Positions 14,658-43,756 of a DNA stretch of 47,245 nucleotides are shown piece by piece. The position numbers and the translations under genes are program-made. The notes beneath the pieces were generated by a model that worked only from the letters and a program-made list of their open reading frames with translations, was not told the DNA's origin and did not search any database. Positions within the stretch are counted from its first letter, which is position 1. Each line of letters opens with the position of its first letter. Location of the stretch: the IMG/VR virus record IMGVR_UViG_3300033571_006754, positions 1 through 47,245 of that record; one strand, written 5' to 3'. This DNA comes from a virus.

Positions 14658-15035
14658 ATGGCCAGCACATATAAAGGTTTTAGTACCACAGGCAGAACAA
14701 GTAATTTTCGCCTTACAGATTTTGATTTGATTAAACAAGATATTTTTAATCATTTTAACATACGTAAAGGTGAAAAACTTATGCGTCCTAATTTTGGCAC
14801 TATTATCTGGAATACACTGTATGAACCATTTACAGAAGATCTAAAAAGTGTAATAGTTAACGATGTACAGTCTATTGCCGCCTACGACCCTCGCGTGAGT
14901 TTTGATAATATTATAATTACAGAATACGATCAAGGAATACTTATCGAACTGCAACTACGCTACGTTCTTACTAATCAAACCAACATCATGTTACTTCGTT
15001 TTAACGGAGATACACAAACCCTCACCGCACAGTAA
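14658..15035 (+). CDS. 25: Baseplate wedge subunit gp25
   Basis: 125 residues; T4 gp25 is 132. It shows the gp25/GPW (lysozyme-like fold, sheath-initiator) pattern: FDLIKQDIFNHFNIRKGEKL, then MRPNFGTIIWNTLYEPFTED, then DPRVSFDNIIITEYDQG and a final beta strand pair. The protein joins inner wedges and starts sheath contraction. The ATG has no Shine-Dalgarno site but lies 5 bases after GATAAATA. It may be translated from a leaderless late mRNA, or by coupling from the spike gene whose stop is 8 bases upstream. Confidence 0.92.
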   Translation: MASTYKGFSTTGRTSNFRLTDFDLIKQDIFNHFNIRKGEKLMRPNFGTIIWNTLYEPFTEDLKSVIVNDVQSIAAYDPRVSFDNIIITEYDQGILIELQLRYVLTNQTNIMLLRFNGDTQTLTAQ

Positions 15036-15086: not shown

Positions 15087-18000
15087 ATGGCAACAACTAC
15101 AAGACAGACTAGTTTATTGATTGCAGAAGATTGGACTAAACTATATCAAAGTTTTCGTAACGCAGATTTTCAAAGCTATGATTTTGAAACTCTTCGTGCG
15201 TCGATGATCAACTATCTTCAACTGTACTATCCAGAAGATTTCAATGACTATATCGAATCCAGTGAGTTTATCGCACTGATCGATATGATCGCATTTCTGG
15301 GTCAAAGCCTGGCTTTCCGCGGTGATTTAAATGCTCGTGAAAACTTTATCGACACCGCACAACGCCGTGACAGTATTCTTAAACTTGCACGTTTAATATC
15401 CTACAATCCTAAACGTAATATTAACAGCAAAGGTTTCTTAAAGTTTGACAGTGTCAGCACTACTGAACCTGTATTTGACAGCAACGGTATTAATCTAAGC
15501 GGTCTAGTGATTAACTGGGCAGACGCAGGCAATAACAATTGGTTAGAACAGTTTACACTAGTACTAAATGCTGCATTACAAAGTAACCAAGTGATTGGTA
15601 AGCCTGCCAGCAGTCAAATTATAGCCGGTGTAACCACAGATGAATATCAAATTAATTATATTCCTAATACTATTCCTGTGTATCCAATAACTGCCACAGT
15701 GGCAGGCACTAGTATGAATTTTGAAGTAGTAAGTCCTACTACCACTGGAGAGACTTATGTTTATGAATCTGCACCAGCACTTAATGTACCTTTTAACTTT
15801 ATCTATAAAAATGATGGTCTAGGCAATAACAGTAATAATACTGGATTCTTCCTGTATTTTGTTCAAGGATCTTTACAAAGTACAGATTTTACATTTGAAG
15901 AAAGCGTACCCAATCGTGTTTACAGTATCAACGCAAACAATATAAACAACAGCGACATTTGGCTGTACAGCGTAGATGCTAATGGTAATTTAGACCAACT
16001 TTGGTCACAGGTTCCGGCTGTGGCTAATACTAATGTTATCTATAATAATTTTACCGATCGAAACATTTATCAGGTCAATACCCGGGCAGGAGATCAAATT
16101 GATCTAATATTTGGTGATGGTGCATTCGCTAATATTCCTAGCGGACGTTATCGATTGTATTATAGAATATCAAATGGACTACAGTACAAGATTACACCTG
16201 ATGAAATGCAAGGCATCACAGTTGCATTAAGTTATGTGAGTCAAACCGGTCGTGTTGAAGTTTTAAACGTTACAGCCAGCTTACAGTACACTGTGGCTAA
16301 TGCAACCACACGAGAAAGCCTAGACGACATTAAACAAAAAGCACCGCAACAATTCTACACACAGAATCGCATGGTCACGGGCGAAGACTATAACATCTTG
16401 CCTTATACCCTGTTCAGTGATATTTTAAAAGTCAAAGCAGTTAACCGCACCAGCTCAGGTGTTAGCCGTTACTTAGATGTTATTGATGTAACTGGTAAGT
16501 ATTCAAGCACAAACATTTTTGCTCAAGACGGTATTCTCTATAGAGATAGTTTTGTTGATAGTTTTAGTTTTGATTACAATACCACTAACGATATTTTCCG
16601 TGTAATCTACGGACAAGTAGCACCCATTGCCCAAGCTACAGAAACCAAACAGTTATTTTATGCAGACTATCCGCTAATTAGTTTATCCAATGTTTATTGG
16701 CACACTTCGACACTGATAGCAAATGGTTGCACAGGTTACTTTGTAGATGTTGACGGTAATATTCTGCAGATTGGCGATATTGTAGCTAACAGTAATAGAT
16801 ATATCCAGCAGGGTGCTATTGTACGATTTAGTGCAGGTTCCGGAAATTATTTTGACAGCCAAAATTATGTAAAAGTAGGAACTCCTAGCCAACCTGGTGA
16901 CAAATACTACGTCTATGCAGCAGTTGAATTAGTAGTAGGTGATGGTACTAACAACGGTCAGGGAAACTTAGACAGCGGCGCAGGCCCAGTAACTCTAAAC
17001 CAAAGGATTCCATTGGCTCTTAACGGATCTCAACAAACTGTCTTAGGTGATCAGGTATTTGCAGTATTTAATGTTGATTTTTCAAACTCATTGGTACAAA
17101 CAATGGTTAGTTACGTACAGGCATTTGCTAACTTTGGATTACGCTACGATACTGATGTTAATGATTGGTTAATTATAGCTCCAGAAAATCTAAACACTGC
17201 GGGCGGATTTGATCTTACGTATGCAGGAGATAATAGCGGGCAAGGATTAGATAGTAGTTGGATTATATCTTTTGAAACTGTAGGGCAAACTTATACAGTT
17301 AGTTATCGCGGACTTCGTTATGTATTTGAAAGTGTGATAGAAACTAATTTTTACTATGATGGCACGACCAAGATATTTGATGCTAAGACAGGACAGACAG
17401 TTCAGGATCAAATTAAAATTTTAAAAGTTAACAGTAATCCCGACAACAGTATGCCGCTAAATCTAGACTATATTTGGTACATTGATAAAAGTATAGTAGA
17501 AGTCGATGGATATACAAATATTAATCGAGTACAGATAACATTTAGTGATAGTGATAATGACGGTATTCCGGATAATCCCGAGCTGTTTGATCTGATTGTA
17601 GACCCCTCAATCAATACCAATGACAAATATGTATATTTTGAATCTACAATAGGATATGATAATTTTGTTGTCCAGACACCAGTCGACAAAAATTTAGTCA
17701 ACAGTGAATACGAAACTCTCAGAGCTGCTGAACAGGCAAAAACTCTATATCAAAATAATCAGCTATTTTATATCGCCCCAATAAATGAATTTTATAAACT
17801 AGAAGTGTCTGGAGCAGTGTATACTCTTGTTATACAAGATGGACAAAACGGTTCAGGAACCTACACAGCTAAATTAGGCCGCCAAGATTTGTATTTCCAA
17901 TATAGACACAATAGTCCTAATAATAAACGTATTGACCCAAGTCCAAACAATATTATTGATTTGTATGTTCTTACTCAGCAATATACAACAGACTATCTAG

Positions 18001-18521
18001 CATGGGTGCAGGATAGCACTGGACTAGTAATTGAGCCAACACCACCTACCAGTGAAGACTTACAGACCAATTACAGTATCTTAGACAATTATAAAACTAT
18101 AAGTGACACAATTATCTATAATCCAGCATCGTTTAAACCCTTATTCGGTAACAAAGCAGAACCAACATTACGAGCAACTTTTAAGATCGTGAAAAATCCA
18201 AATGTTGTTGTAAGCGACAATGAAATTAAAACCAGTGTGATTGCCGCAATTAATCAATACTTTGACATAGCCAACTGGGATTTTGGCGAAACGTTTTATT
18301 TCAGTGAATTGGCCAGTTATCTACATGTTCAACTGAGCCCTAATATTTCAAGTATTATAATTGTACCAGCTAACGAAGCAGAAGCTTTTGGTAGTTTGTT
18401 ACAGGTAAATGCAAATATCAACGAAATAATAACCAGCGCGGCAACGGTTGACAATGTGCAGATTATCACTGCAATCACTGCCGCTCAATTGAATCAAACA
18501 GGATTAGTAATAGTAGCTTAA
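15087..18521 (+). CDS. 6: Baseplate wedge subunit gp6
   Basis: 1144 residues, against 660 in T4. The N-terminal ~110 residues are diagnostic: FQSYDFETLRASMINYLQLY, then DFNDYIESSEFIALIDMIAF, then FRGDLNARENFIDTAQRRDS. IDLIFGDGAFANIPSGRYRL and RESLDDIKQKAPQQFYTQNR, followed by VTGEDYN, match the baseplate J-like core of gp6. The extra length is mostly beta-rich insertions in the middle. Residues 821-829 (DSDNDGIPD) form a thrombospondin-3-like calcium-binding loop. The C-terminal FNIANWDFGE-type segment is also typical. gp6 dimers form the inner ring of the baseplate that links wedges and controls its change of shape. Confidence 0.92.
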   Translation: MATTTRQTSLLIAEDWTKLYQSFRNADFQSYDFETLRASMINYLQLYYPEDFNDYIESSEFIALIDMIAFLGQSLAFRGDLNARENFIDTAQRRDSILKLARLISYNPKRNINSKGFLKFDSVSTTEPVFDSNGINLSGLVINWADAGNNNWLEQFTLVLNAALQSNQVIGKPASSQIIAGVTTDEYQINYIPNTIPVYPITATVAGTSMNFEVVSPTTTGETYVYESAPALNVPFNFIYKNDGLGNNSNNTGFFLYFVQGSLQSTDFTFEESVPNRVYSINANNINNSDIWLYSVDANGNLDQLWSQVPAVANTNVIYNNFTDRNIYQVNTRAGDQIDLIFGDGAFANIPSGRYRLYYRISNGLQYKITPDEMQGITVALSYVSQTGRVEVLNVTASLQYTVANATTRESLDDIKQKAPQQFYTQNRMVTGEDYNILPYTLFSDILKVKAVNRTSSGVSRYLDVIDVTGKYSSTNIFAQDGILYRDSFVDSFSFDYNTTNDIFRVIYGQVAPIAQATETKQLFYADYPLISLSNVYWHTSTLIANGCTGYFVDVDGNILQIGDIVANSNRYIQQGAIVRFSAGSGNYFDSQNYVKVGTPSQPGDKYYVYAAVELVVGDGTNNGQGNLDSGAGPVTLNQRIPLALNGSQQTVLGDQVFAVFNVDFSNSLVQTMVSYVQAFANFGLRYDTDVNDWLIIAPENLNTAGGFDLTYAGDNSGQGLDSSWIISFETVGQTYTVSYRGLRYVFESVIETNFYYDGTTKIFDAKTGQTVQDQIKILKVNSNPDNSMPLNLDYIWYIDKSIVEVDGYTNINRVQITFSDSDNDGIPDNPELFDLIVDPSINTNDKYVYFESTIGYDNFVVQTPVDKNLVNSEYETLRAAEQAKTLYQNNQLFYIAPINEFYKLEVSGAVYTLVIQDGQNGSGTYTAKLGRQDLYFQYRHNSPNNKRIDPSPNNIIDLYVLTQQYTTDYLAWVQDSTGLVIEPTPPTSEDLQTNYSILDNYKTISDTIIYNPASFKPLFGNKAEPTLRATFKIVKNPNVVVSDNEIKTSVIAAINQYFDIANWDFGETFYFSELASYLHVQLSPNISSIIIVPANEAEAFGSLLQVNANINEIITSAATVDNVQIITAITAAQLNQTGLVIVA

Positions 18522-21500: not shown

Positions 21501-24500
21501 ATAGATCAACAGGCTAATTTTATTAACTCTATAAGATATGCGCAATTAGAGTACACTAAGTTTAAAAATAAATTTTTAGACCTTAGCTTAAGTCTATCAG
21601 GCATCGATCCAAACGATCCAGTATCCAGTGTTGATACTATTCTAACAAAAATTAATTTTGTCAAAAATCAATCATTCCCTTGGTACTACAGCGACATGGT
21701 TCCATATGGTCCATTGAAAAATATCGTTGGACAAATCGGCAGTATTGATGGTTTCCAAGTTTTTGATCCTTTAAAAACAAACTATGAAATTACTGAAATT
21801 TTTAACGATCGAATTTTAAGCAACAAGGCTATATTAATATACTTAAATGACCAGCAGCTAATTAACGAATTAGATTATAGATTCAGTCGCGAAACCCCTA
21901 GTGTAGATTTTCTAATACCTTTATCGGTAGGCGATATCATTAAGATAGTTGAATACAGTAACACTGACGGTAACTACATACCAGAGACTCCAAGCAAGTT
22001 AGGTTTATGGCCTGCGTTTGTGCCAGAACGTTTTTACGACGATACGTACAGAGATCCAATCTATGTGATCAGAGGACATGATGGTAGTATTACTCCTAGT
22101 TTTAATGATTATAGAGATGAATTTTTACTAGAATTAGAAAAACGTATCTATAACAATATTAAACTACCTAACAAAAATTCGTTCAATGAAATTTATTCTG
22201 TTGTACCAGGCAAATTTAGACAAGGACAATACAATCTTACAGAATTTAATCAAGTACTAAGTCAATCTTTTCTAAGCTGGATTGGCAACAATAAGCTGGA
22301 TTACAGTACCAATGACACTTTCCAATCCAACGATCCGTTTACATGGAACTATGGCGCAAGTCGTGATAGGGTAGATGAAGAATTGTTGCCGGGAAGTTGG
22401 CGTGCTTGTTATCAATATTTTTATGACACTTATCGTCCTCACATAACCCCTTGGGAAATGTTAGGATTTTCATCAGAGCCAAGTTGGTGGGAGGCCTATT
22501 ACGGTACTGCACCGTACACTGGCGCTAACCAAGTTTTATGGGATGACCTAGAACTAGGGCGCATTAGATTCGGGGATCGTCAAGGCATTGATCAAAATTA
22601 CAGTCGCCCAGGATTGAGCAACTATATACCTGTAGATGCAAACGGTAACTTAATTGCTCCTGCCTCTATACTAGCTAAAACATTTAACAGTAAACGTTCA
22701 GCATCAGCCTGGGCTATTGGACAGCAAGGACCAGTAGAATTTGCGTGGCGTGCTAGCAGCGATTTTCCATTTGCTGTTCAGCAGGCACTAGCACTAGTAA
22801 AACCTGCATTTTACTTTGGTACACTGATTAATGTCAATGCCTATACTCCTCTTAATAGTTTGTATAGTAAGTCGGTAAATGTAGAAGGTATTGCAATAAT
22901 TAATCAGCAATATCTATTTGATTCAACCAATGGGCACATAACCCAAGAAGCTATAACCTTTAACGGAGAAAGTTATTTAACCTCAGTGTATCGTACTGCG
23001 GGATATATTAACTGGATCGCTGATTATCTAATTAATCTTGGAATTAATCCACAGAATTATCTGTCAAATCTGATAGAAAAGTTCCAAGTAAATTTAGCAT
23101 ATAAAGTTAGCGGGTTTACAGATCAAAAATATTTAAAAGTTCTAGCAGAGCAAGTTAGTCCTGCGAGTTCAAATGACAGTGTATTGATCCCAAATGAAAA
23201 CTACAAAATATTTTTAAACACTAAGCCAGTACCCATAGATAAAATAATCTATAGTGCGGTTATTGTTGAAAAAACAACTAACGGTTACACTGTACGAGGA
23301 TATGATTTATTCAATAGTTTCTTTACTATAATACCAAGTATTGTTAATAACAATGCCACAAGAATAACGGTTTTAGGAAGCTCTGCCACTATATACAAAG
23401 ATTTTCAGAATCTTAATATGAATGTCCCGTACGGCTATGAATTTAATAGTCAACAGCAATTAGTAGATTTTTTAATTAGTTACGAACGTTACTTAATCGC
23501 ACAGGGTTTTACATTTAGTTCAGTTGATCCACAGCTAGAACAGATTAAAGATTGGACATTAAGCGCAAAAGAATTTTTATATTGGGCGCAACAAGGTTGG
23601 AAACCAGGTAGTATTTTGGTTTTAAGTCCTGTGTCTGATACTTTAAATGCTGTTTCTTCAGGGTCAATAATTGAGGGGATTGAAGATTCACAGTACGGTA
23701 CTAAGGTAGTTGACCAAAACTTCAATTTGATTAAAAATAACAAATATAACGTTTATAGAACACCAACAGAATTTAAGTTGACATTGGACGATGCGGCTAG
23801 TGTGTTAGGTTTTGTAGATTTGAATTTAGTTCAGTACGAACACACGTTAATCTTTGATAATACAACGGTGTTCAATGATGTCATTTATCAACCTGAAAGT
23901 GGTAACAGACAATACAGATTAAAACTTATTGGACAACGTACAGCACAATGGGATGGTAGTTTAAGCCCTGAAGGATTTATTTATAATTCAGGAGTAGTTG
24001 CAATTTGGAATCAAGGACGTGACTATCTGCAAGGAGACCTTGTACAGTATAAAGGTAGATTCTATGTAGCGATTCAGGATATTCCCGCTAGTGATGTATT
24101 TCAATTTCAAAACTGGGAACTACTATTAGCTGAAGAACTTAAGAAAGGTTTGCTACCTAATTTCGCTACTATAGCAGTCGAAAGCCAATCATACTATGAT
24201 AGTTACGGTAAAATTAGGAACAAAGACCAGTTAGAGTACAGCCATGCACTAATCGGCTATAAAGAACGTCAATATCTAGCAGATTTGGGCCTTACTGAAA
24301 CCACACAGATAGAATTTTATAAAGGCTATATTGCACAAAAAGGTACAAAAAATGCGGTTGACGCATTTACTAGTGCTAATATTAATTATTTGACCAGCAG
24401 TATAAACATGTACGAAGAATGGGCTATGCGTGTAGGAGACTACGGAGCATTAACAAGTAATCCATTTATTGAAATAGTCTTAGATGAAAAAACATTTGGT

Positions 24501-27500
24501 GTTAATCCTGGTGTGGCTAGATTTGTCGACGATGCTAACAATAATATCAGCAACGGATTAGATATTTTTGATCGCTCTCAGGTGTACAGATCGTACGGTG
24601 ACTATAGTGCTAATGTAGCATTAAATAGAACTCCGTCTAGTAACTACGACAATGATATTCCTACTGCGGGATACGTAAACATTGACGACATAGATTTGCA
24701 AATTTTTGATTTAGATAGTTATGTAGATCTAAATAATAACATCTCAGAAATGGGTAGCGGGTACCTAATTTGGGTAGCTAGAGATTTTACCAATGATTGG
24801 AATGTATACCGAGTTACAGAGACTAACAATCAAGTAACCTTGGTCACAAATAATCTTAATAATCAAATTGCTTTCACTACTAAACTTCCGCATGGATTTA
24901 CCAAAGGCAGTATATTCTTAGTTAAAGATTTTGCTAGCGAATTTGATGGATTCTACAGAGTTATCTCAGTGTTAAGCAGTACACAAGTGTTAGTGCGATA
25001 CAACGGAATTTTAGAAAATCTAACTTCACAAGAAGGTAATGGTATTTTACTAAGACTTGACAGTGTCAGATTCCAGTACATGGAAGATGCACGTATCTAT
25101 GGTTTAGAAAATCCTCCAAACGGTTGGAAAGTTGGTGACAAGATTTGGATTGATGATGATGCAGAAACCACAGCAGTGCAAGGACAACCGTTTGGCACAC
25201 AACCCAATGGTACCTGGAAAGTCTACGAAAAAACAGCACCGTGGTCGCTGTATCAGGAAATAGAAAAAAGTGTAGCCGAATACAGTACGTCTGACGCATT
25301 TGGTACTTCAGTAAAAATGTCCAGCGACAACTTGGTTGTAGTCGTAGGGGCACCCGACTCAGGTAATGTAGGACAAGTCAATACATTCCTAAGAAATTAT
25401 CTTGGAAACTATGAGCAAGGTTTCAATATAATACCTACGGCCGATAACACTAGAAAATTTGGACATAGCGTTGATCTCGCTATTAGTCCTATAGGAGATA
25501 ATAAACTTGCAGTAGGAGCATATAATAGTGGATCAACAGTAGGTAACGGATATGTATATGTTTATGATAAAGCACTAAGTTCTCAATTTTTTGAAATTAG
25601 TCAAGTGTTAATAGGTAATGTTGCAGGCGATCAATTTGGTTATAGTATAGCATTTAATCAAAATGGTGAATGGTTATATGTAGGAGCTCCAGGCAATAAC
25701 ACTGTGTATGTCTACGGTTTAGATAGATTTGTACCTGTACAACAAGATATTATATCTATCAACAATCTAAATACTCTTTACCTAAGTCAAAATGGTCACA
25801 GTGGACAAATAGTTGCTGGAGATACATTAGTTCAAGTTTCTACAGGTGCAGAAGCTACAGTAAAAGCGGTAATCAGTAACACTGAAATTCAAGTCGATAC
25901 ACTAACAGACTTTGTAGTGGCCACCTATGGCAGCAGCGGTAATGTAAGTCTTGGTAATCTTACAGTAACGGCCAATCTTAATATTATAAGAGGAGCTGAT
26001 CTAACAGTTTCAAACGTATTTCCATTTAACACAGCCAGCAACGCTAGTGTATCTAGTGTTAATTTATCCTTTAATCCAGTGAGCAGTGATCCCAACGGTT
26101 TGGTCATTACCGATTCGTCTAAAACTTGGTTACCAAACGTAGAATACACTGTCTCTGGAAATACTGTTACATTTAATGCTAACATAAATGCAACCACACT
26201 TAATGTTCGACAACAGCCATACTACAAATTATTAACTAAACTACCTATTCCTACAGGTAATAGTTGGGCACAGTATGGATTTGCGGTTTCTTCAAGTTTT
26301 GATGGTGCTCAGCTAGCAGTAGGGGCCCCTGGCGATACTGTAGCTGATAATGATGGCACCCTGCGAGCAGGTGCAGGTTCTGTGTATGTATGGGATCGTG
26401 TGATCGAGGCATTTAATTCAGTAACTGATGCAGTACCAGGCACAGGTGGTCAAGATTATCAGACTGACAATACTATTGCCGCAGTTTACAAAGTAACAAT
26501 TGACGGTATTGAAACTACAGATTATACTGTAGTAGGCACTAATACCATTAGATTTATTAATCCACCTGCTATAGGTCAGATTATCTTTGTTGAAGTTAAT
26601 CAGTTTAATATACTAGAACGACTAATTGGTGTTGATAGTTTAGAGGGCGGTCTTGAGGCCATCCAAGCTAATGCAGCTTTTGGTACTAGTTTAACAATCT
26701 GTTCAAACAACTGTGCGATTTATATTGGCGCACCTAACTACGATAATGGTAGAGAATACAATTCAGGTGCGGTATGGAAGTTCCATAACAAAGGACGTTT
26801 GTATGGTACTAATCGAGGATTCTTAAAGAATCCAACATTTAAACCAGTCGACACAATCCGACTAAACAACTTTGAAGTTCGTGTAAGTTTAGGTTTAACT
26901 AGTAATGTCACTGTAGCCGTAGGAGATTATATTACTCAACCTGTTACAGGAGCCAATGTAAGAGTAGTACGAGCGACCACAGGGAATATTGTTGCTGTGA
27001 GCAAATATCAAAACACCAATGTGTTTACCATAGGTGCTAATATCGCAATTAATAACACTTGGGTAGTGGGTAATGTTGCTGTGCGCTTGACTACCTTAGA
27101 TGAATTTGTTGAAGATATTAATACTTCTAACATTTTAGGTATTAGTGCTACAAATGAAAATGGTAATTTACGCATTAACTCTGACGTTACCGTATCTAAA
27201 GACCAATTGCGTATTTTATCTGGAATTACTAACACAGATAGTACAGGGGTCTTAACAGAGTCAAACTTAATTGTATTTGCATTCATGCAGATTATTATAA
27301 ATCCGTTTGGTTTGCCTGGTGAATATTTTGGTAATAAAGTTAAACTTGCAGCAAATGCTTACATGTTGGTCATTGGCAGTGCTCGCGGTACTACCTTTAG
27401 AGATACAACATTTGATATCAATACCACAAAGAACGGTACTAGTTTAGATAACAGCACTACAAGATTCCGCGACAGTATATTAAGTAGTGGTAGTGTTTAC

Positions 27501-30500
27501 ATTTACGAACTTTACGATGATCCTCGCAATGAAGTAGAGAATCCTGGGCGTTATGCTTATGCACAACAACTAGATCCAGGACCTCTAGTTCCTGGAGGAG
27601 AATTTGGCTATGCTTTAGATATCGAGGGATCATACATTACGATATCTGCCCCAAACATGACGTCCAATGGCGCACCAACAGGCAGCGGTTCTGTTTATGT
27701 GTTTAATAATCCAGCTATGACAAGAGGTTGGCAATTGATTCGTTATCAACAACCTAAAGTGGATCTGGACAGTATAACTCGTGCATATCTGTATGACGCA
27801 CAAACTAATTTAATTAAAGAAAATCTACAGTTTATAGATCCTGCAAAAGGACGCATATTAGGACAAGCTGAACAAGAAATCAGTTTCAAAACAGAGTATG
27901 ATCCAGCTGTTTATAACAGAGGATTTAATCCTAATGCAAATATTAATTCTAAATTGTATTGGGGCGATTTGCAAGTAGGTCGTGTATGGTGGAATCTAAA
28001 TAAAGTTCGCTACATTGATTATGAACAAGATACTCTTGTATATCGTAGTTTGAATTGGGGAAGATTGTTTGACGGTAGTACTATTGAAATCAGTGAATGG
28101 GTAAAAAGTTCTTACTTGCCTAGCCAGTACGTAGACAATGTAGGTGATGGGGTACCTTTATATCCTGATGACAGTGCTTATGTACAACAAACTTATGTTG
28201 ATCCTTCAACAAATATTATAACTGTACGTTATTATTATTGGGTGACTGGTAGATCTACTGTTGATCCTAATAATGAAACAAGAAATTTACCAACAAGTGC
28301 CATTGCAGATTTAATTGCTAATCCAAAAAATCAAAATGTGCCGTATGCGGCAATGATTAAAAGCGATGCGATTGCATTTTATAATATTGCAAATTATCTA
28401 AGTGCAGACAACACTGTTATGCATTTGGATCATCAATTGGTAATTAACTCTGATATTATCCACAGTGAATATGAGTTGGTACAAAAAGGTAATCCTAGTA
28501 GCATAATACCTCCTTCGTTGGTTAACAAAATGATTGACAGCTTGGCAGGTATAGATCGAAATGGATCATTGGTACCAGATCCTTCGTTGAGTCAAGCAGA
28601 CAGATATGGTGTTTTAATTCGACCAAGACAAAGCATGTTTGTTGATAGATTAGCTGCCTTAAACGAACTAATTTCATACATTAATGACATTTTTGTTAAA
28701 GCTCCAATAGCGGAAGAGTCTGACCTTTCTGGAATGTACGCGGCAGAACCTGAACCTAACTTTAAGCTAGGCGAGTACGATCAACTAGTTAACACTGAAC
28801 TTGAACTAGATTATATCGATACCTCTGAACTACCAGTTGGTTATCGAGTACTGGTCAAATTTGATACCTCGCAAGACGGTTTATGGGTACTGTATTCTCT
28901 GCAGGCTGACAAGACTTGGAATATAGTAAGAATACAAGGGTTTAAATCTGACCTATACTGGAATTTCATTGACTGGTATGCAGAAGGATACAGTGCTACA
29001 ACTAAGCCTGACTTTAGTGTAGCTACCACTATCGACGCTGTAAAATTAAATGCAGTAGAAGGAATCTTGATATTCATCCAAAATGCTACCGGTAATAACA
29101 CTTGGCAATTAGTAGAAGTACAGGCTGATGGCAGTCTACGTGTAGTCGGAATACAGAACGGCACTATAAGAATCAATCCATCATTGGCCGATTATCAAGC
29201 CAGCGAAATTGGATTTGGTAATCAAGATTATGACAGTAATAGATTTGATCAAAATTCAAATTTTGAAATCCGTTCTATAGTCAGCGCCTTATACAACGAT
29301 ATACTTGTAGGAACTCTACAAGGAGAATTCAATAATTTATTCTTTATTTTAATAAATTATTTGCTGACAGAGCAAAAATATGTTGACTGGTTATTTAAAT
29401 CTAGTTTTATTACAATAACACATCAATTAAGAACACTAAGTCAGTTTCCGAGCTATGTGAGAGATAATCAATCCTACTACGAAGATTACATTAACGAAGT
29501 TAAACCTTATCGCACTAAGATACGCGAATACTTGTTGAACTATACTGGTAATGATCAATTTGCTGGAGACATAACTGACTTTGATCTACCTGCATATTTT
29601 GATACTACTTACGGTCAGGGAATTTTCCGTAGTCCTAGTGGTGAAAATCCTTATGTAGAACAGGACGAAGCGACCTGGCAGTTATGGCCTTGGAATCAGT
29701 GGTATAATAATCGAAATCTTGAAGTATTCCGTGTGCAAATTCAATCAGGAGGTGCTAATTATACACTAACTCCTACAGTTACTATTACCAGCGCAGATGG
29801 TAACGGGTTAGGGGCAACTGCTGTGGCAGTGCTTGATGGTAATACATTCACGATCAGTAATATTCGTGTTACCAACAGTGGTGTAGGTTACACTAGCACA
29901 CCTATAGTAACTATTAATGGTAATGGCACCGAACAAGCAAGAGCCTATGCTGTAATGTATAGTCCGGTGGTGCGTACATTTGACAGCAAACTTAAATTTG
30001 ACCGTGTGAAATATAACAGTAATGTCAAAGTATGGACATCAAATACTACCTATATAAAAACACAATTTGACAGCAACGGACGAGTAACTAGTGGTGACAT
30101 CGTGACACGAGCAGTGTTAGATGGTAATGTAGTGGTGCGTAAATCATACTTCATTAACGCCAACATTACTACTGGAAACACATTTATACCTAGTGACTAC
30201 TCACTTTGCCCATCAAGTTATTTTGACAATGCCAACGATCGTATAGTTGGGTATTACGAGCCAACAGCGGTTATGCCTGCTGTTGATACAATCTATACAG
30301 CTATTACTTTAGCGAATTCGGCATCTAATACCAATACCATTTATGTGTACAATTCTGAAGGCATAGCTAAAAACATGTACATAAACGGTCATAGCGTTGA
30401 GGCAGGATACATAACAGAAATCATTGGTAATGTTACGTTAATGGTTAACAGTCGAGGATACTTTTTAGGCAACATTACACAAGGCATATCTTCGATTGAA

Positions 30501-31798: not shown

Positions 31799-32395
31799 AT
31801 GACAATTAAAATTAGCGAACTTGCCAATTTAACAGCCGTATACGGAAACGTTATTGTACCGGTAGTGGCCAATGTTGCAGGCACATTAATCACAGTAAAA
31901 GGTAATTTAGATTACATAGGATCTTACATTGTATCTGGTACCGAAGCTAATTTATTATTAGCTAACACTATACAGAGTCAACAAATTACAGCGGCTAATA
32001 TTGGTATAATTGGCTATGTGAATAATAGTAACTCTATACAAACTGCTTACGTTAACGGACAAATAACAGCAGCCAATGCAGGAGTAACTGCAGCAAATAT
32101 TGGAATGATAGGGTATGTTAATCAAACTAACATTGCCATGCGAGGTTATGTTGACAGTACTGTACAGGCAAATGTTTATTCTAATATTAACGTAAACACA
32201 TACCTGACAAATTCATGGTCTGGGAATATAAGTGGTAATGTAAAGGTAAACGGAACTTTTGCAGTCGCAAACGTTTATGTACCAACAGCTGCTAACAGCT
32301 TGGGTATAGCAGGGCAAATGGTATGGGATAATAATTACCTATATATATGTGTAAGTGCCGATACATGGAAACGTGCTAATATTGCAACTTGGTAA
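31799..32395 (+). CDS. Short fibre-like virion protein
   Basis: 198 residues, starting 2 bases after the giant gene's stop with GAGGA upstream. KISELANLTAVYGNVIVPVV near the N-terminus resembles attachment segments of marine phage fibre proteins. The middle carries two copies of TAANIGxIGYVN separated by related AAYVNGQITAAN units, suggesting a trimeric beta or coiled fibre. The C-terminus GQMVWDNNYLYICVSADTWK, followed by RANIATW, is a small tip motif I recall at the ends of other marine phage structural proteins. The likely role is a short tail fibre or baseplate attachment piece; the precise role is unknown. Confidence 0.65.
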   Translation: MTIKISELANLTAVYGNVIVPVVANVAGTLITVKGNLDYIGSYIVSGTEANLLLANTIQSQQITAANIGIIGYVNNSNSIQTAYVNGQITAANAGVTAANIGMIGYVNQTNIAMRGYVDSTVQANVYSNINVNTYLTNSWSGNISGNVKVNGTFAVANVYVPTAANSLGIAGQMVWDNNYLYICVSADTWKRANIATW

Positions 32396-33195: not shown

Positions 33196-34545
33196 ATGTC
33201 ATACATTGTAAATTTACCAGACGGAACGCTACTAACAACAATACTAGATGGTACTATTAATAATACATCATCTAGTTTAACTTTAGTAGGACGAAATTAC
33301 GCAGGCTACGGAGAAATCATAGCAGAAGATCTTGTGGCTCTGTTAGTAAATTTTTCTAGAAATTCAGCACCAAATAATCCATTAACTGGTCAAATTTGGT
33401 ATGACAGCAGCGCAACAATAGCTAAAGTGTACACAGGAACTGCATGGAAGCCGATTGGTAGTGCTACGTTTTCAGCCACAGCACCCGCAAGCACAGTTGG
33501 CGGAGATTTTTGGTGGGACAGTGTTAACAAACAGCTTTACTGCTATGACGGAACTACCCCGTATAACATAGCAGGATGGATCCTAGTAGGTCCTGGCTAC
33601 AGTGCTGTACTAGGTAAAAGCGGTGCACTTTTCGAGCAAATTTCAGATGGTGTTGCACTACACGATGTAGTTTCATTGTATCTAGATGGTACACGAACTG
33701 CTATCATCAGCCAAGACGCGGCATTTGTTCCTAGCCCAAGTATCGCAGGATTTGCAGTAGTACAACGTGGCTATAACATGACCACCGTTGATACACTGGG
33801 TACTATCTGGGGAACTGCTAATAATTCAAGTTACCTAGGTCTACAACCAGCCTCTAACTATTTCCGTAACAATATTAACAACAGCGGCACAGGTACATTA
33901 AGTATCGTTAACAATAGCGGATTAACAGTCGGCACATTTGGTCAGTTTGTTGCAAATATTTCAAGTAACAACGTAAGCCTACATAACACAGTAAGCGGCG
34001 GTCTACGTTTGGTAAACCAAGGCAACGTAGCACTGACAGTAACAGCCGCAGGTCAAGTAGTTGTAAACACCGATCCTTCTCAAGCGTTAGGCGTAGCAAC
34101 TAAGCAATATGTAGATAACAGTTTTATTAATGCCAATCTTTGGGGGGTTTCAACGGCGATTACAGCACCAAACGGTACTGCTAACACTATGATTGCTACT
34201 ACTGAATTCGTTGTAAACAATTCAGGATTCTTTAGATACAAAATTTATCAAGGCAGTAGCCACGTATGGGTTGACAATGCCAGTGCAAACGTAGTAGTCA
34301 ACGGTGCAACCGTAATGTCGGCTACCTCCGGCGGTGTAGTGTTAAATAATGGAGCCACTGCTACTACACAAGGACAAACCTACAATACTACTGGTAATAG
34401 TTTAGTAGCTACGACACAGTTCGCAAAAACTGCTACAACTTGGTGGGGTGGTAGTGCTAAGTTTGTAAGTAATGCTGCACCTATAGCAGGTGTAAATGAT
34501 ATTGGATCCAATGACGGAGATTTTTGGTTCCAATACGCAAATTAA
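33196..34545 (+). CDS. Tail fibre protein, paralogue 1
   Basis: 449 residues. It shares an N-terminal module of about 200 residues with the genes at 34559 and 36419: LVGRNYAGYGEIIAEDLVAL, GQIWYDSS, GDFWWDS, WILVGPGYS and a FVPSPSIAGFAVVQRGYNM block. This module probably attaches the fibre to the baseplate. The rest is Asn/Ser/Thr/Gly-rich beta sequence, with ALGVATKQYVDNSF as in many fibre proteins, and the end reads NDGDFWFQ. The second paralogue ends similarly (SNGDIWYQI). SD TAGGA is 11 bases before ATG. The host-contact tip is expected in the variable C-terminal half. Confidence 0.78.
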   Translation: MSYIVNLPDGTLLTTILDGTINNTSSSLTLVGRNYAGYGEIIAEDLVALLVNFSRNSAPNNPLTGQIWYDSSATIAKVYTGTAWKPIGSATFSATAPASTVGGDFWWDSVNKQLYCYDGTTPYNIAGWILVGPGYSAVLGKSGALFEQISDGVALHDVVSLYLDGTRTAIISQDAAFVPSPSIAGFAVVQRGYNMTTVDTLGTIWGTANNSSYLGLQPASNYFRNNINNSGTGTLSIVNNSGLTVGTFGQFVANISSNNVSLHNTVSGGLRLVNQGNVALTVTAAGQVVVNTDPSQALGVATKQYVDNSFINANLWGVSTAITAPNGTANTMIATTEFVVNNSGFFRYKIYQGSSHVWVDNASANVVVNGATVMSATSGGVVLNNGATATTQGQTYNTTGNSLVATTQFAKTATTWWGGSAKFVSNAAPIAGVNDIGSNDGDFWFQYAN

Positions 34546-34558
34546 CTAAGGTACATCA

Positions 34559-35842
34559 ATGCCATATTCAATAACTACATATTCTGGAAATCCCGTAGCC
34601 ACAGTACAAGACGCTACTATTAACACAACATCAACTGCTTTGACTTTGATAGGCAGAGATTATGCAGGCTACGGACAGTTTCTAAATGAAAACTTCGTAT
34701 ATCTATTAGAAAACTTTGCAGGCAATACTGCCCCATCAGAAAAACTATCTGGTCAAATATGGTATGATACTAGCGTAAACACTCTAAAAGTTTGGAATTT
34801 CTCTGCAAATATTTGGAAACCAATCAGCAGTTCTATAGCACAAAATACTGCACCGGTCGGTGCTACATCTAGTTTAGGAGATTTATGGGTAGATACTAAC
34901 TCTAATCAACTTTATGTATACAACAACGGGTGGAAATTAATTGGCCCAGGAACAGTTTCAAGTGTCGGGGGTACTTCGGGTGCTGTGGTTGAAGTTATCA
35001 CTGACGCAAGTGATGTAGATCATACTGTATTAAAATTCTATATTGAAAATCAAGTCATTGGTATTGTAAGTTATGACCCTACATTTACTCCTAAAAACTC
35101 TATTAACGGTTTCGCCACTGTTAATCCGGGGTTAAATGTTGTTAGTTCAGACGCTGTGGCTGGATCTCAGATCACAGGTGACGCTACCACTGCACAGACA
35201 TTAGGCGGTGTATCATCTACGCAATTCTTGCGTAGTGACCAAGATTCTAATACACCTTATCAACTTACAATGGGTAATTTAGTAGTAGGAAGTTCTTTTT
35301 CATTGAATGAACGTCCCGGAAATAACGAAGTTAGGGCTACTAGTTTATTAAATGGTTATAATTTTAACTTTTATGCAAATATAGGTGGTTCAGTTAACTC
35401 TAGAATTTATGGAGTCAATGGTACTACAGGTGCAGTTACAATTGATCGTGCAGTATCAATAGGTTCTACATTAAGTGTAAGTGGTGCATTTACTGCCAGT
35501 GGCACAACAACCTTAGTAGATATCACTACTCTACAAAATAGAATACGACCAAATACAGACGGCACGATTGATATAGGTGAATCAGCAAGAAAGTTTGCTA
35601 ATGTACACGCTAGTACTTTTAGAGGAAACTTAGTTGGTAATGTAGTAGCTAGTTCAATGACTGTGGGTAATATTTCTATATCTGGCAACGCAATAACTTT
35701 ATCGGGCAATCCATTTGCTACACAGGCATGGACCACGTCAACAATAAATACCGCAGGAAGAAATAGCCAAGGAACAAAAGTTATAAGCACTAGTCCACCA
35801 AGCGGTGTTGGGTCAAATGGAGACATTTGGTATCAAATTTAA
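34559..35842 (+). CDS. Tail fibre protein, paralogue 2
   Basis: 427 residues. Its N-terminal module matches the other two fibres (LIGRDYAGYGQFLNENFVYL, GQIWYDTS, GDLWVDT, WKLIGPG). The central part has TLGGVSSTQFLRSDQ, also found nearly intact in paralogue 3 (TLGGLTASQFLRSDI). The C-terminal third contains NRIRPNTDGTIDIGESARKF, an element common in marine phage fibres. It ends in SNGDIWYQI like paralogue 1. It is followed after 2 bases by the adhesin-like gene, a layout like fibre plus adhesin in T-even phages, though no sequence match to gp37/gp38 is claimed. Confidence 0.78.
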   Translation: MPYSITTYSGNPVATVQDATINTTSTALTLIGRDYAGYGQFLNENFVYLLENFAGNTAPSEKLSGQIWYDTSVNTLKVWNFSANIWKPISSSIAQNTAPVGATSSLGDLWVDTNSNQLYVYNNGWKLIGPGTVSSVGGTSGAVVEVITDASDVDHTVLKFYIENQVIGIVSYDPTFTPKNSINGFATVNPGLNVVSSDAVAGSQITGDATTAQTLGGVSSTQFLRSDQDSNTPYQLTMGNLVVGSSFSLNERPGNNEVRATSLLNGYNFNFYANIGGSVNSRIYGVNGTTGAVTIDRAVSIGSTLSVSGAFTASGTTTLVDITTLQNRIRPNTDGTIDIGESARKFANVHASTFRGNLVGNVVASSMTVGNISISGNAITLSGNPFATQAWTTSTINTAGRNSQGTKVISTSPPSGVGSNGDIWYQI

Positions 35843-35844
35843 TC

Positions 35845-36381
35845 ATGACTATTAGTGTTTATGACAATGTTCAATGGAAGATCCCAAAAGCTATCTATGT
35901 ATACAACGCTAATGCTAATGCATGGACGGAAACAACTAGTGTATCTATCTATGCTAATTCAGCCTGGCAACAAGTTCATAATACCGCAGTAATCACTTCA
36001 AATGTGACTAATGCTAATCTTTTTACTATTATGGGAAGTCCTACAGTTCCGTTGAACGTTAAGGTAACTGTAAATGTAGGAGTTACAATTAGTTCTGTAA
36101 ATGCCAATGTAGCTAGTTTTAGAGTTGATAGTTTTCCGGCCGGAAGTAGAATATATTTAATTAATAATGGTACTATCCAAGGTGCCACAGGAAATGCTGG
36201 TTGGCCAGGCGGCAATGCTTTAACTGTTTCGACTCCTATCATTATTGACAATAATGGTACTATAGCAGGTGGGTCAGCTAATGCAATAGTATCGGCGGGA
36301 ACAGGATATTATCTAGTCAGTCAAGCTAATGTTTCTACAACATTTGAAGACAGTGGAACTTTACTAGGATTACTTAAATAA
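35845..36381 (+). CDS. Adhesin-like protein downstream of a tail fibre gene
   Basis: 178 residues from ATG 35845, 2 bases after the fibre stop; a TTG 18 bases upstream would overlap the fibre gene and is less likely. The N-terminal part has short Trp-containing units (VQWKIPKAIYVYNANANAWT, NSAWQQV) like small fibre-tip repeats. The middle has IYLINNGTIQGATGNAGWPG and IIIDNNGTIAGG, Gly/Asn-rich loops resembling receptor-binding adhesins of phages with gp38-like tips. The position after a fibre gene fits a tip protein that recognises the host. Function is inferred from context and composition. Confidence 0.6.
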   Translation: MTISVYDNVQWKIPKAIYVYNANANAWTETTSVSIYANSAWQQVHNTAVITSNVTNANLFTIMGSPTVPLNVKVTVNVGVTISSVNANVASFRVDSFPAGSRIYLINNGTIQGATGNAGWPGGNALTVSTPIIIDNNGTIAGGSANAIVSAGTGYYLVSQANVSTTFEDSGTLLGLLK

Positions 36382-36385
36382 TCAA

Positions 36386-36393
36386 GATAAATA
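36386..36393 (+). promoter_or_regulatory. Late promoter GATAAATA before fibre paralogue 3
   Basis: GATAAATA in the 37-base gap. The predicted start near 36399 gives a 20-base leader before the ATG at 36419, the same geometry as the 8105 promoter. The leader is very AT-rich, with ATAGG as a weak ribosome site. Confidence 0.7.
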
Positions 36394-36418
36394 ATATAAT
36401 ATTAAATAGGTTATAAAA

Positions 36419-37885
36419 ATGGCATATACAGTCACCACAACAGCAGGAACGGTAATCACCACAGTAGCAGATGGTACCGTAAATACCACGAGCACTAGTC
36501 TTGCCTTAATAGGTAAAAACTATGCAGGTTACGGTATTTTCTTAAATGAAAACTATGTACAGTTGCTAGAAAATTTCAGCGATTCTACACCTCCTACAGC
36601 ACCCCTAACCGGACAACTATGGTACGATAATGTAAACGATATATTAAAAGTTTACAATGGCGACACTAATGTTTGGAAACCTATTTCAAGTAGTATTGCA
36701 CAAGGTACTGCGCCAAGCGGCAGTATCAGCGTTACTGGTGATATTTGGTGGGACACAACAAACGCTCAGCTCAAAGTTTGGTCAGGAAGTGCGTGGATTG
36801 TTATTGGTCCAGCATATTCGAGCACAGCAGGATCATCAGGTCCACTCACTGAAACCATTTTAGATACAGGTGGTAATCCGCATGTAGTTACAAAATTTAA
36901 TATTTCGGGTAGTACTATTGCTATTTTAAGCAAGGATGCAACTTTTACTCCACAGACAGCTATCCCTGGCTTTGCTACTATTATTCCAGGAATGAACTTA
37001 ATCAGTGCTAGTACCTTAACAGGTGCCCAATTTACAGGTGCTACCACAGGTGCTAGTACCTTAGGTGGGCTCACAGCTAGTCAGTTTTTACGTAGCGATA
37101 TCAGCCAAACAACTAATTTTGCCTTTGGTGCAGCAGGCGGGTTAACAGTAGGCAGCGACTTAACATTCAATTCAACATCACCCACAGTTGCAGTTGTAGG
37201 TCAAACCACCCTAAACAAAAATTTACGTTTTGACCTTAATCGCAGTGGTGTTACAACCACAGCTTTAACTCTTACAGCGTCTACAAATACAGTAACAGTC
37301 GGTAACGCATTAATAGTTTCTGGTCCTGCATCAGTTTCTAGCACACTGGCTGTTACTGGAGTAACAACGGTGTCAGCTAATATTGTGCCAAATGCATCCG
37401 GTACTGTAAGTATCGGGACTTCAGCCACAAGATTTGCTAATGTTTGGGCAACCACATTTACTGGAAATTTAATAGGTACTGCGGTTCAAGCACAATACGC
37501 TGACTTGGCAGAACGTTTTGCTTCAGACAGTACATATCCAGCTGGTACAGTGGTATCGTTAGGCGGTATTAAAGAAATTACAGCCGCGGCAGAAGAATTA
37601 ACAGAAGATGTATTTGGAGTGATAAGTAAAGCAGCAGGATTTTTAATGAATAGCACAGCAGGAACTGATGCAACACATCCGGCAGTTGCGGTAAATGGTC
37701 GAGTACCAGTCCGGGTCGTTGGTATTGTTCGCAAGGGCGATCGCTTGGTATCAGCTGGCATGGGTTTAGCTAGGGCAGCTAAACGTACAGAAATCACAGC
37801 ATTTAACGTCATTGGACGAGCATTAGAAAATAAAACAACAGATGGCGAAGGTACGATCGAAGCCATTGTTAAACTAAATAGTTAA
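36419..37885 (+). CDS. Tail fibre protein, paralogue 3, with a conserved C-terminal fibre domain
   Basis: 488 residues, the longest of the three paralogues. Shared module: LIGKNYAGYGIFLNENYVQL, GQLWYDN, GDIWWDT and AFGTATIIPG-type block (actual sequence PGFATIIPGMN). IVPNASGTVSIGTSATRFAN parallels paralogue 2. The last ~130 residues (from YADLAERFASDSTYPAGTVV) include FGVISKAAGFLMNS and GRVPVRVVGIVRKGDRLV. I recall this domain at the ends of many cyanophage fibres; it may be a trimerising or self-processing tip domain, but no catalytic residues can be assigned here. It has its own late promoter. Confidence 0.78.
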   Translation: MAYTVTTTAGTVITTVADGTVNTTSTSLALIGKNYAGYGIFLNENYVQLLENFSDSTPPTAPLTGQLWYDNVNDILKVYNGDTNVWKPISSSIAQGTAPSGSISVTGDIWWDTTNAQLKVWSGSAWIVIGPAYSSTAGSSGPLTETILDTGGNPHVVTKFNISGSTIAILSKDATFTPQTAIPGFATIIPGMNLISASTLTGAQFTGATTGASTLGGLTASQFLRSDISQTTNFAFGAAGGLTVGSDLTFNSTSPTVAVVGQTTLNKNLRFDLNRSGVTTTALTLTASTNTVTVGNALIVSGPASVSSTLAVTGVTTVSANIVPNASGTVSIGTSATRFANVWATTFTGNLIGTAVQAQYADLAERFASDSTYPAGTVVSLGGIKEITAAAEELTEDVFGVISKAAGFLMNSTAGTDATHPAVAVNGRVPVRVVGIVRKGDRLVSAGMGLARAAKRTEITAFNVIGRALENKTTDGEGTIEAIVKLNS

Positions 37886-41156: not shown

Positions 41157-42033
41157 TATAGCAGATTTGGACTGCATCTATCTTAGTTACGACGAACCTC
41201 GTAAAGAAGAAACTTGGATCAAGATACAGAACATGGTACCATGGGCCAAGCGTGTGGATGGAGTCAAAGGCAGTGATGCCGCGCATAAAGCAGCCGCAGA
41301 TGCCAGTGATACTGACAGATTTGTATTAATCGACGGTGATAATATTCCTGATACAGAATTTTTTAATCTACAACTAACACTGGATGACACGAGCAAAAAT
41401 GCTGTATTTCGTTGGAAGGCACGTAATCACATTAATGGACTGATGTATGGTAATGGTGGACTAAGTTGCTGGACTAAAGAATTTGTCTATGCTATGAAGA
41501 CACACGAAAACACAGATGGTACAGAAGCTAACGACGTAGAGTTTTGTTTTTATCCCAATTATTGGGCCATGCACGACTGTTATTCAACTACATATCCCAA
41601 CGCTACACCATTTCAAGCGTGGCGTGCAGGATTCCGTGAAGGTGTTAAAATGTGTTTAGATCGTGGACGCAAGCCAGGCTTAGTTGACTTCGAAGTTCGT
41701 GTACACAATCGCAACTACGATCATTTGTGTATTTGGCAAACTGTTGGCGCAGATGTAGATAACGGATTTTGGAGTATATACGGTGCAAGACTAGGTACAT
41801 GGATGACCATGCTGAATAATTGGGACTATCGTGATGTACAAGACTTTGACAAATTGGCAATATTGTGGGAAGAATTCAAAGATCATGGTGCTGATAACTG
41901 TACCGGTATTGGAAATATCCTAAGACAAAAATTAAGCCTACCTATAGTAGACATGGATCCAGAAGAAAGTCGATTCTTTAAACACCACTACAAGAGTGTG
42001 TTTAGAAATCAAGGAGTGATGGAAAGAGAATGA
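41140..42033 (+). CDS. Putative glycosyltransferase (DGD motif), conserved in marine T4-like phages
   Basis: 297 residues. CIYLSYDEPRKEETWIKIQN, WAKRVDGVKGSDAAHKAAAD, then DTDRFVLIDGDNIPD form the N-terminal half, with DGD (65-67) as the probable metal/nucleotide-sugar motif. The later NGLMYGNGGLSCWTKEFV and DVEFCFYPNYWAMHD may form the acceptor side. I recall this family from cyanophages as glycosyltransferase-like. Its stop overlaps the next start as ATGA, tying it to the sugar-nucleotide genes downstream. Confidence 0.68.
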   Translation: MTQIIDIADLDCIYLSYDEPRKEETWIKIQNMVPWAKRVDGVKGSDAAHKAAADASDTDRFVLIDGDNIPDTEFFNLQLTLDDTSKNAVFRWKARNHINGLMYGNGGLSCWTKEFVYAMKTHENTDGTEANDVEFCFYPNYWAMHDCYSTTYPNATPFQAWRAGFREGVKMCLDRGRKPGLVDFEVRVHNRNYDHLCIWQTVGADVDNGFWSIYGARLGTWMTMLNNWDYRDVQDFDKLAILWEEFKDHGADNCTGIGNILRQKLSLPIVDMDPEESRFFKHHYKSVFRNQGVMERE

Positions 42034-42797
42034 AGATCGGAATAATTGGATTGGGCGTAGTTGGTAGTGCAATAATGCAGGGTCTGCAGCAAATAGGCCA
42101 GCAGGTTAGTTTTTATGATACTAAATTTAAAGATACATCGATCGTTGATGTTTTAGATTCTGAAATAGTGTTTATTTGTGTGCCTACTCCCACAGTCAAC
42201 GGGTACTGCGACACTAGTATTATAGAACTTGTTATAAAAACATTAATGGATAATAATTACACCGGCATAATTGCTATAAAATCTACAGTTGCACCTAATT
42301 TTACCCAAGAATTGATAGAGAAATATAATAATCATAAAATCTGTTTTGTTCCTGAATTTCTGAGACAACGCTGTGCATTTGATGATTTTTATGCAAAGCA
42401 TGATGTATTGGTAATTGGAACCAACAATAGTAAAGTGTTTAACACAGTTAAAGAAGCCCACGGGTCTATTCCTGTACAAGTTATACAAGTATCACCAGTA
42501 GAAGCAGAAGTTGTAAAGTATTTTAACAATGTGCATAATGCTATGGAAATTGTTTTTGCAAACGCTGTACACGAAATGTCTGTAAAGTTAGGAGCAAAAT
42601 ATCAAAATGTTTATGATGCAATGACTAAGAGACATAATATTAATCCATCATACTTAAAATGTTCGGATGAATTTAAAGGTTATAGTGGTGCATGTTTGCC
42701 TAAAGATACAGAAGCATGGGCAAATTTAGCACAAGATTTGGGTGTTGATGTTAAATTGTTTGATGCGATTGTTAACGATAACAAAAGGTATCTATGA
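42030..42797 (+). CDS. Short UDP-glucose/GDP-mannose dehydrogenase family protein
   Basis: 255 residues against about 390-450 for usual members. The NAD-binding and catalytic parts are present: GLGVVGSA (7-14), VPTP (51-54), KSTV (84-87), PEF (108-110), VSPVEAEVVKYFNN with K163 and N166/N167, and YSGACLPKD with the catalytic Cys at 222. The C-terminal domain that binds the UDP moiety is missing, and the gene ends cleanly with an ATGA overlap to the next, so this is not a recent frameshift. It may make a uronic acid, work with a partner, or act on a different substrate. Confidence 0.82.
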   Translation: MKIGIIGLGVVGSAIMQGLQQIGQQVSFYDTKFKDTSIVDVLDSEIVFICVPTPTVNGYCDTSIIELVIKTLMDNNYTGIIAIKSTVAPNFTQELIEKYNNHKICFVPEFLRQRCAFDDFYAKHDVLVIGTNNSKVFNTVKEAHGSIPVQVIQVSPVEAEVVKYFNNVHNAMEIVFANAVHEMSVKLGAKYQNVYDAMTKRHNINPSYLKCSDEFKGYSGACLPKDTEAWANLAQDLGVDVKLFDAIVNDNKRYL

Positions 42798-43756
42798 GAA
42801 TTTTAGTCACAGGCAGCGAAGGCAGCTTAATGCAAGCATTGATACCAAAATTATTAGTGTTAGGGCATACTGTAATTGGTGTAGACAATTTATACAAGTA
42901 TGGCATTCCTAGTTCAAAAGCCGGTATAGATTATCAATTCTATCAACAAGACCTATTGAATTCTGATGAAATTTTAAAATTAACTAAAAATATTGATTTA
43001 GTAATTCATGCGGCAGCTAAAATATACGGAGTGCTTGGCTTACGAAACTATCGAGCTGATATACTGGGCGATGAAGTAACAGTGGCAAGGAATATTTTAA
43101 ATGCTTGTGTATTAAATAATATTAGTCATGTAGTCTATATGAGTTCAAGTATGGTTTACGACGCATGTGTTCAAGATATAACAGTTTCGTTAACAGAAGA
43201 TATGCCATTTTACTCTCCATATCCGAATACTGATTACGGCTTGGGGAAGTTAGTAACTGAAAGATTATGTAAAGCATACCACCAACAGTACGGTATTAAT
43301 TATACTGTGTGGAGACCATTTAATATTGTTAACCCGCAAGAAATTTCAATGACTGAACAAGGCATTAGTCATGTTATTCCCGACTTTATTAATAATATTG
43401 TTAAGAAAAAATTAAATCCACTGCCAATAATTGGCAACGGAGATCAGGTTAGATGCTTTACGTGGATAGAAGATGTAGCAGACATTCTTGCTCAATGCAC
43501 ATTTGACGATCGCACAAAAAACGAAATATTTAATATTGGTAATACTACCCCTGTCACTATGAAAGAGTTAGCAAATTTGATTAATCTTTTTGCTTTTGGA
43601 GAGAACAGAGAACTTAACTTTGTCACAGCAACAGACTATGAATACGATGTAAAGGTGCGAGTACCTTCAATAACAAAATTAAAAGGTATTATAAGCGACC
43701 CAAAATTTATGCCAATTGAAAGTATTATTCGGCAGTGTCTGGATGTTAGTAAATGA
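42794..43756 (+). CDS. NAD-dependent nucleotide-sugar epimerase/dehydratase (extended SDR)
   Basis: 320 residues. Rossmann motif VTGSEGSLMQA (5-15); the usual third Gly of TGxxGxxG is replaced, giving GxxGSLM. The catalytic set is S118/S119 (YMSSSMVY), Y148 and K152 (YGLGK). WRPFNIVNP and GDQVRCFTWIEDVADIL are standard for UDP-glucose 4-epimerase-like enzymes. The exact sugar change is not determined. The ATGA overlaps at both ends link it to the dehydrogenase and to the next transferase, so they probably act in one pathway. Confidence 0.85.
   Translation: MRILVTGSEGSLMQALIPKLLVLGHTVIGVDNLYKYGIPSSKAGIDYQFYQQDLLNSDEILKLTKNIDLVIHAAAKIYGVLGLRNYRADILGDEVTVARNILNACVLNNISHVVYMSSSMVYDACVQDITVSLTEDMPFYSPYPNTDYGLGKLVTERLCKAYHQQYGINYTVWRPFNIVNPQEISMTEQGISHVIPDFINNIVKKKLNPLPIIGNGDQVRCFTWIEDVADILAQCTFDDRTKNEIFNIGNTTPVTMKELANLINLFAFGENRELNFVTATDYEYDVKVRVPSITKLKGIISDPKFMPIESIIRQCLDVSK

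Follow-up and report, generated by a model that had tools for sequence, protein, structure and literature searches.

A predicted seven-bladed integrin-alpha-type propeller in a giant virion protein encoded next to gp6 in an uncultured phage clade

Introduction

What would an integrin-like propeller do in the tail machinery of a phage? This question is raised by the virus record IMGVR_UViG_3300033571_006754 (IMG/VR), a single record of 47,245 bases that was analyzed over its whole length and is referred to here as the window. It encodes a giant protein of 4,418 amino acids (aa) directly after a gene for a gp6-type baseplate wedge protein (Table 1). An initial annotation of the sequence had reported seven FG-GAP repeats in this protein, with blades 3, 4 and 5 each followed by a long insertion, and had proposed a closed integrin-alpha-like beta-propeller, absent from T4, that serves as a host-binding or wedge-bracing element. 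Here, we examine the repeats, their predicted fold, their history among relatives and their rate of change.

Results and Discussion

The giant protein carries seven FG-GAP repeats

Starts of FG-GAP repeats were located at residues 2252, 2305, 2364, 2577, 2712, 2928 and 3020, giving a block of residues 2252-3066 (window 25293-27737) that is slightly longer than initially annotated. The Pfam family FG-GAP_2 (PF14312) matched the whole giant with an E-value of 1.3e-11 and the sub-region with 7.2e-17, the latter in six stretches (61.7 bits versus a cut-off of 23). FG-GAP_3 (PF13517) had no match in the window record, and the repeats are of the FG-GAP_2 type. A blade hidden Markov model (HMM), trained only on loci of an independent scan and with the close clade of the window left out, found exactly seven domains in the giant (E-values for blades 1 to 7: 1e-9, 2e-5, 5e-13, 1e-9, 9e-13, 7e-3 and 8e-10); the best match among 200 shuffles had an E-value of 1.7e-4. 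The inserts between the blade cores measure 173, 85 and 170 residues after blades 3, 4 and 5, respectively. Both the seven repeats and the three long insertions of the initial annotation are confirmed. A sequence search of the PDB with the propeller as query returned no match. The FD...TxF loop of blade 6 was considered as a universal feature and is not claimed as such, its regular expression having matched only 39 of 89 members.

The predicted fold resembles the integrin alpha head

An AlphaFold2 model of the propeller region, built with 21 related sequences, reached a mean predicted local distance difference test score (pLDDT) of 71.9 and a predicted template modelling score (pTM) of 0.69. 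Its best VIA-align match was integrin alphaM (Z 39.5, root-mean-square deviation (rmsd) 2.5 Å, 351 residues) and, among the matches listed, all 50 were integrin alpha chains. The aligned part of the model, positions 49-882, corresponds to residues 2233-3066 of the giant and starts on the integrin side from chain residue 1, as would be expected if both share the N-terminal closing strand. The top Foldseek match in the PDB was integrin alphaIIb (E 3.3e-9); the TM-scores were low, which is probably due to the inserts disrupting the global fit. Together, these comparisons support the prediction of a closed beta-propeller of the integrin-alpha (FG-GAP) type, with seven blades, for residues 2233-3066. 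Neither AlphaFold2 nor VIA-align gave a fold lacking the seven blades, which is the result that would contradict the initial proposal.

Adhesion is the role commonly assigned to FG-GAP propellers, and the propeller might accordingly be a host-surface adhesin whose top face and inserted loops bind a broad, conserved bacterial ligand, either a glycan or a surface-layer protein, thereby positioning the baseplate. An adhesive role of FG-GAP has also been argued for an algal virus (PMC11467894). On the other hand, the calcium motif DxDxDG, strict or relaxed, does not occur in residues 2185-3100 and RGD does not occur in the window's propeller, which counts against adhesion of this kind, although glycan binding is compatible with such absence. 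Taking into account the evidence on history and rates given below, we consider an adhesin possible, at well under even probability.

The giant protein is probably associated with the baseplate

The giant belongs to a family (PHROG 10938) with relatives in the cultured jumbo phages PA5oct, RaK2, PBECO4/121Q, GAP32, CBB, Munch, Atu_ph07, Phosso, SCTP-2, Vibrio 2.275, BF and XaC1; named members are PA5oct gp355, RaK2 gp465, PBECO4 gp538, CBB_236 and phAPEC6 gp245. It shares approximately 25-45% identity across long stretches with its relatives in RaK2, PA5oct, Phosso and SCTP-2, and a search of bacterial genomes found no relatives. The N-terminus of the giant lies at most 400 nt from a gp6 homologue in 160 of the 163 loci that include upstream sequence, a count in which near-duplicate contigs are included.

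Homologues have been detected in virions by mass spectrometry. CBB_236, equated with the giant through its coordinates, was found with 21 peptides at 7.72% coverage (PMC5259590, Table 4), and phAPEC6 gp245 (381.9 kDa), assigned to the family by position and size, with 17 peptides (PMC7247149, Table 1), where gp244, a 131-kDa wedge protein, is listed directly before it (PMC7247149). For PA5oct gp355, a GenBank note records detection in the virion by electrospray ionization tandem mass spectrometry (ESI-MS/MS). Baseplate association, as initially suggested, is therefore well supported by gp6 synteny and virion mass spectrometry of homologues, and gene position together with mass spectrometry suggests that the giant is part of the baseplate wedge itself. 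The 'marine' label attached to these phages initially found no support in this analysis.

Three loci deserve mention for the layout of the family. On one contig (L022:3423-17099) the giant is broken into four open reading frames (ORFs), perhaps by a sequencing or assembly error. In Salicola phage SCTP-2 (L040:2633-11923) the gene preceding the giant is 9,291 nt long, far longer than gp6 elsewhere, and is possibly a fusion. In cyanophage S-SSM4 (L049:8362-24459, cut) the gene after gp6 has 20,799 nt (~6,932 aa), with one 152-residue stretch matching the window giant; gp6-adjacent giants thus occur in T4-like cyanophages too.

The propeller occupies a variable slot and shows one change of state on the flank tree

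Two conserved flanks enclose a slot of 871 residues in the window. The slot has approximately 100 residues in RaK2, PBECO4, BF and XaC1, 159 in Vibrio 2.275, 233 in PA5oct, 371 in SCTP-2, ~1,150 in Phosso and 1156 in Atu_ph07. None of these contains blades at the profile threshold, and the propeller version of the gp6-adjacent giant was absent from every cultured phage of the collection searched. Judged by eye, the alternative contents differ among themselves, and most have no Pfam family match. The Pfam scan of the giant gave, besides FG-GAP, only a sub-threshold CBM_5_12; similar stretches below the Pfam cut-off are found in some other slots, an observation that would fit an adhesin. The SCTP-2 slot has, by eye only, a LamG-like appearance.

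Among 137 distinct slot-bearing loci, seven repeats were counted in 41, six in 40, two to five in 8 and none in 48. The scan seeded from propeller-free flanks yielded a propeller in 31 of 69 distinct loci, and that started from the window's clade in all 38. On an unrooted tree built from the flanks only, the propeller is present in 89 of 136 members (including the very divergent L187, counted as propeller-bearing on a wider profile match) and absent from 47, with a single change of state (Shimodaira-Hasegawa-like approximate likelihood ratio test (SH-aLRT) 99). Shuffled states required 39.1 changes on average, and none of 500 shuffles gave as few as one. No loss was seen among the 89 sampled members of the propeller clade. 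A single gain is likely, the alternative being a single loss since the tree is unrooted.

The varied slot contents had given rise to the working idea of a frequently exchanged adhesin slot; for the propeller, this idea is opposed by the single change on the flank tree, and the same change without loss in 89 members speaks against an adhesin in general. The wide variation in slot contents between clades, down to approximately 100 residues, could also mean that the propeller is a passively tolerated insertion, a filler with no specific role. Its retention in all 89 sampled clade members, and a conservation of blades 5 and 6 at or above that of the scaffold, make this very improbable.

In compact members such as L156, all seven blades are present and the gaps between them are at most 30, and in L135 long inserts follow blades 4 and 5 only, which suggests stepwise acquisition of the inserts.

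Blades change at nearly the rate of the scaffold, the downstream gene much faster

Mean identity over 30 close pairs was 0.91 for the flanks, 0.87 for the blades and 0.82 between blades. Across 19 full-length proteins, identity is 0.80 for blade 5 and 0.72 for blade 6, compared with 0.65-0.71 for the scaffold regions, and blades 1-2 are lowest (0.47-0.50). The inserts vary among relatives in both length and sequence, as an adhesin might.

The short tail-protein gene directly downstream of the giant has counterparts of ~200 to 770 aa in relatives, which are the fastest-diverging in the neighbourhood. In a small sample of comparisons, the first downstream ORFs of L019 and L007 are 59% identical over 272/749 residues, with flanks 95.5% and blades 91% identical; the L122/L133 pair shows 84% versus 99% for the flanks, and L111/L133 61% versus 86%. 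Judged from these sequence comparisons, this gene is likely a candidate host-specificity part.

That the rate of the blades is close to that of the scaffold, beside a far faster gene, also argues against the adhesin. One conserved and one variable side is what would be expected of a coupler, and the propeller could be a moving trigger part between wedge and fibres, by means of which fibre binding would cause the baseplate to rearrange and the sheath to contract. The position of the gene next to gp6 would suit such a role. RaK2-type phages, however, have working contractile tails without the propeller, and we regard a trigger part as improbable.

A proposed docking platform at the baseplate wedge

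The account we favour, at about even probability, is that the propeller is a built-in interaction platform within a giant that is located at the baseplate wedge and encoded in the position of T4 gene 7. The giant would be part of the wedge, and the propeller would form a rigid platform at the wedge edge or baseplate periphery. Its conserved side, blades 5-6, may dock on the wedge itself or on a partner (a fibre adaptor, for instance), and the inserted beta modules would face outward together with blades 1-3. In this way the propeller would act as a brace or spacer for the wedge and as a surface for attachment, and primary host specificity would sit in faster-changing proteins, for example that encoded directly downstream. 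A docking platform is favoured over a host-specificity tip because the blades change near the scaffold rate and the downstream gene much faster; we infer that the facts fit a permanent docked platform better than a quickly changing tip. Of the two functions offered in the initial annotation, wedge-bracing accordingly fits better than host-binding, given the single tree change, the lack of loss, the scaffold-like rate and the faster neighbour.

Several points weigh against this account. A broad, invariant receptor would be compatible with slow evolution too. Between L008 and both L023 and L034, flanks are 0.85 and blades 0.59-0.62 identical, as for a swapped ligand-binding head; a propeller exchange or recombination within the propeller is possible in this relative and would favour an adhesin. 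The confidence of the propeller model is only moderate (pLDDT 71.9). The sequence evidence for blade 6 is weak when taken by itself, its E-value of 0.0073 lying among those of the shuffles; the blade was accepted because of its position, its family alignment and conservation, and the predicted model. Profile comparison of the giant with T4 gp7, using windows and deeper alignments, revealed no homology (hhalign probability at most 1.5%). An N-terminal AlphaFold2 model of a 121Q-type relative, its first 120 residues being of low confidence, had no significant match in the PDB (best Z 4.2, JBD30 baseplate). Finally, a structure of any member of the giant family was not found, and placement in the wedge draws on gene position and mass spectrometry only.

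More broadly, and tentatively, jumbo myophages may use an integrin-alpha-type propeller as a permanent baseplate part. It would serve as a docking hub for a fast-changing specificity protein, and variation in host binding would be shifted to the neighbouring gene and the inserted loops.

Other genes in the window

Downstream, at window 33196-37885, the ORFs 33196-34545, 34559-35842 and 36419-37885 have a common N-terminal module (phrog_14394/15511) and differ at the C-terminus, which resembles a set of fibres built on one adaptor; a tail-fibre C-terminus is present in the third. A 1,047-aa protein (window 9451-12594) with an N-terminal Phage_lysozyme2 domain (E 1.5e-29) adjoins a gp5-like spike gene. 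Four radical-SAM genes flank the tail operon (window 648-7215 and 44708-46096), three of them interleaved with SbcC/SbcD-like genes, and window 42030-43756 holds UDP-glucose dehydrogenase-like and nucleotide-sugar epimerase-like genes.

Table 1. Features of the giant protein and its neighbours in the window (residues are those of the giant).
Feature	Position	Strand	Evidence or remark
gp25 gene, upstream of giant	14658-15035		
gp6-type baseplate wedge protein, immediately upstream of giant	15087..18521	+	phrog_10646, 1032.6 bits; phrog_219, 93.3 bits
Giant virion protein, 4,418 aa	18540..31796	+	phrog_10938, 1130 bits; directly after gp6
Conserved left slot flank, residues 1560-2060	23217..24719	+	common to propeller-free cultured jumbo phages
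CBM_5_12-like stretch, residues 1823-1847	24006..24080	+	Pfam 23.7 bits, below cut-off of 26.2
Predicted seven-blade FG-GAP beta-propeller, residues 2233-3066, including N-terminal closing strand	25236..27737	+	AlphaFold2, VIA-align, Pfam
Blade 1, residues 2252-2300	25293..25439	+	repeat scan, family alignment, blade HMM
Blade 2, residues 2305-2358	25452..25613	+	repeat scan, family alignment, blade HMM
Blade 3, residues 2364-2403	25629..25748	+	repeat scan, family alignment, blade HMM
Insert after blade 3, beta-rich, length-variable, missing in compact relatives	25749..26267	+	
Blade 4, residues 2577-2626	26268..26417	+	repeat scan, family alignment, blade HMM
Insert after blade 4, beta module	26418..26672	+	
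Blade 5, residues 2712-2757, with CSNNC motif; mean pair identity 0.80, the highest of all blades	26673..26810	+	
Insert after blade 5, beta module, length-variable	26811..27320	+	
Blade 6, residues 2928-3000, conserved (0.72), long hairpin with TTFD...TTRF	27321..27539	+	
Blade 7, residues 3020-3066	27597..27737	+	family alignment, blade HMM
Conserved right slot flank, residues 3070-3345	27747..28574	+	
Short tail-protein gene directly downstream of giant	31799..32395	+	phrog_17312 tail protein

Comparison with known systems

The closest structural likeness of the modelled propeller is to the integrin alpha heads (alphaM, alphaX, alphaV), with seven blades, Z 36-39.5, an rmsd of ~2.5-3 Å over ~350-370 residues, and large domains between blades, namely the alphaI domain in integrin and beta modules in the giant. 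It differs in its low identity (16-20%), in the lack of DxDxDG calcium loops, in its inserts after blades 3, 4 and 5 and in its location mid-way in a 4,418-aa phage protein.

FG-GAP propellers as separate phage proteins are already known. Cyanophage S-TIM5 gp054 (L048:14281-15504) matches FG-GAP_2 with E 1.3e-79 and has seven blade-profile matches, but it is a free-standing protein of 407 aa, annotated as a virion structural protein, and not part of a gp6-adjacent giant. Likewise, Sinorhizobium phage Phosso gp108 (L217:3860-8414; FG-GAP_2 E 7e-126) has 19 blade-profile matches in its first 1,518 residues, whereas it is encoded by a separate gene elsewhere in the genome (~3,692 aa) and the gp6-adjacent giant of Phosso lacks a propeller. 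The 19 matches would be enough for two or more propellers. Proteins annotated as FG-GAP from uncultured phages and from giant viruses are also among the structure-search matches. Among the papers searched, none joined FG-GAP, phage and baseplate.

RaK2-like phrog_10938 giants share family, gene position, conserved N-terminus and slot flanks with the window giant, but ~100 residues replace its 871-residue propeller region. T4 gp7 (1,032 aa) occupies the same gene position after gp6 but has no FG-GAP repeat; FG-GAP had no match in gp7 or across 20 kb of the region holding the T4 tail genes, in line with the initial statement that the element is not present in T4, and the Pfam domains Gp7_helical, Gp7_5th and Gp7_6th were not found in the giant. 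A giant beside gp6, at the place of T4 gene 7 and without detectable gp7 homology, may help explain very large baseplates. In contrast to the separate propellers already known, the new element here is that a gp6-adjacent giant has an integrin-type propeller as a module that is fixed and probably of single origin. This would mean that big phages of a large, uncultured clade have a domain resembling the integrin head within their tail machinery. Its clean presence or absence on the tree makes the role of the propeller testable by comparing baseplates with and without it.

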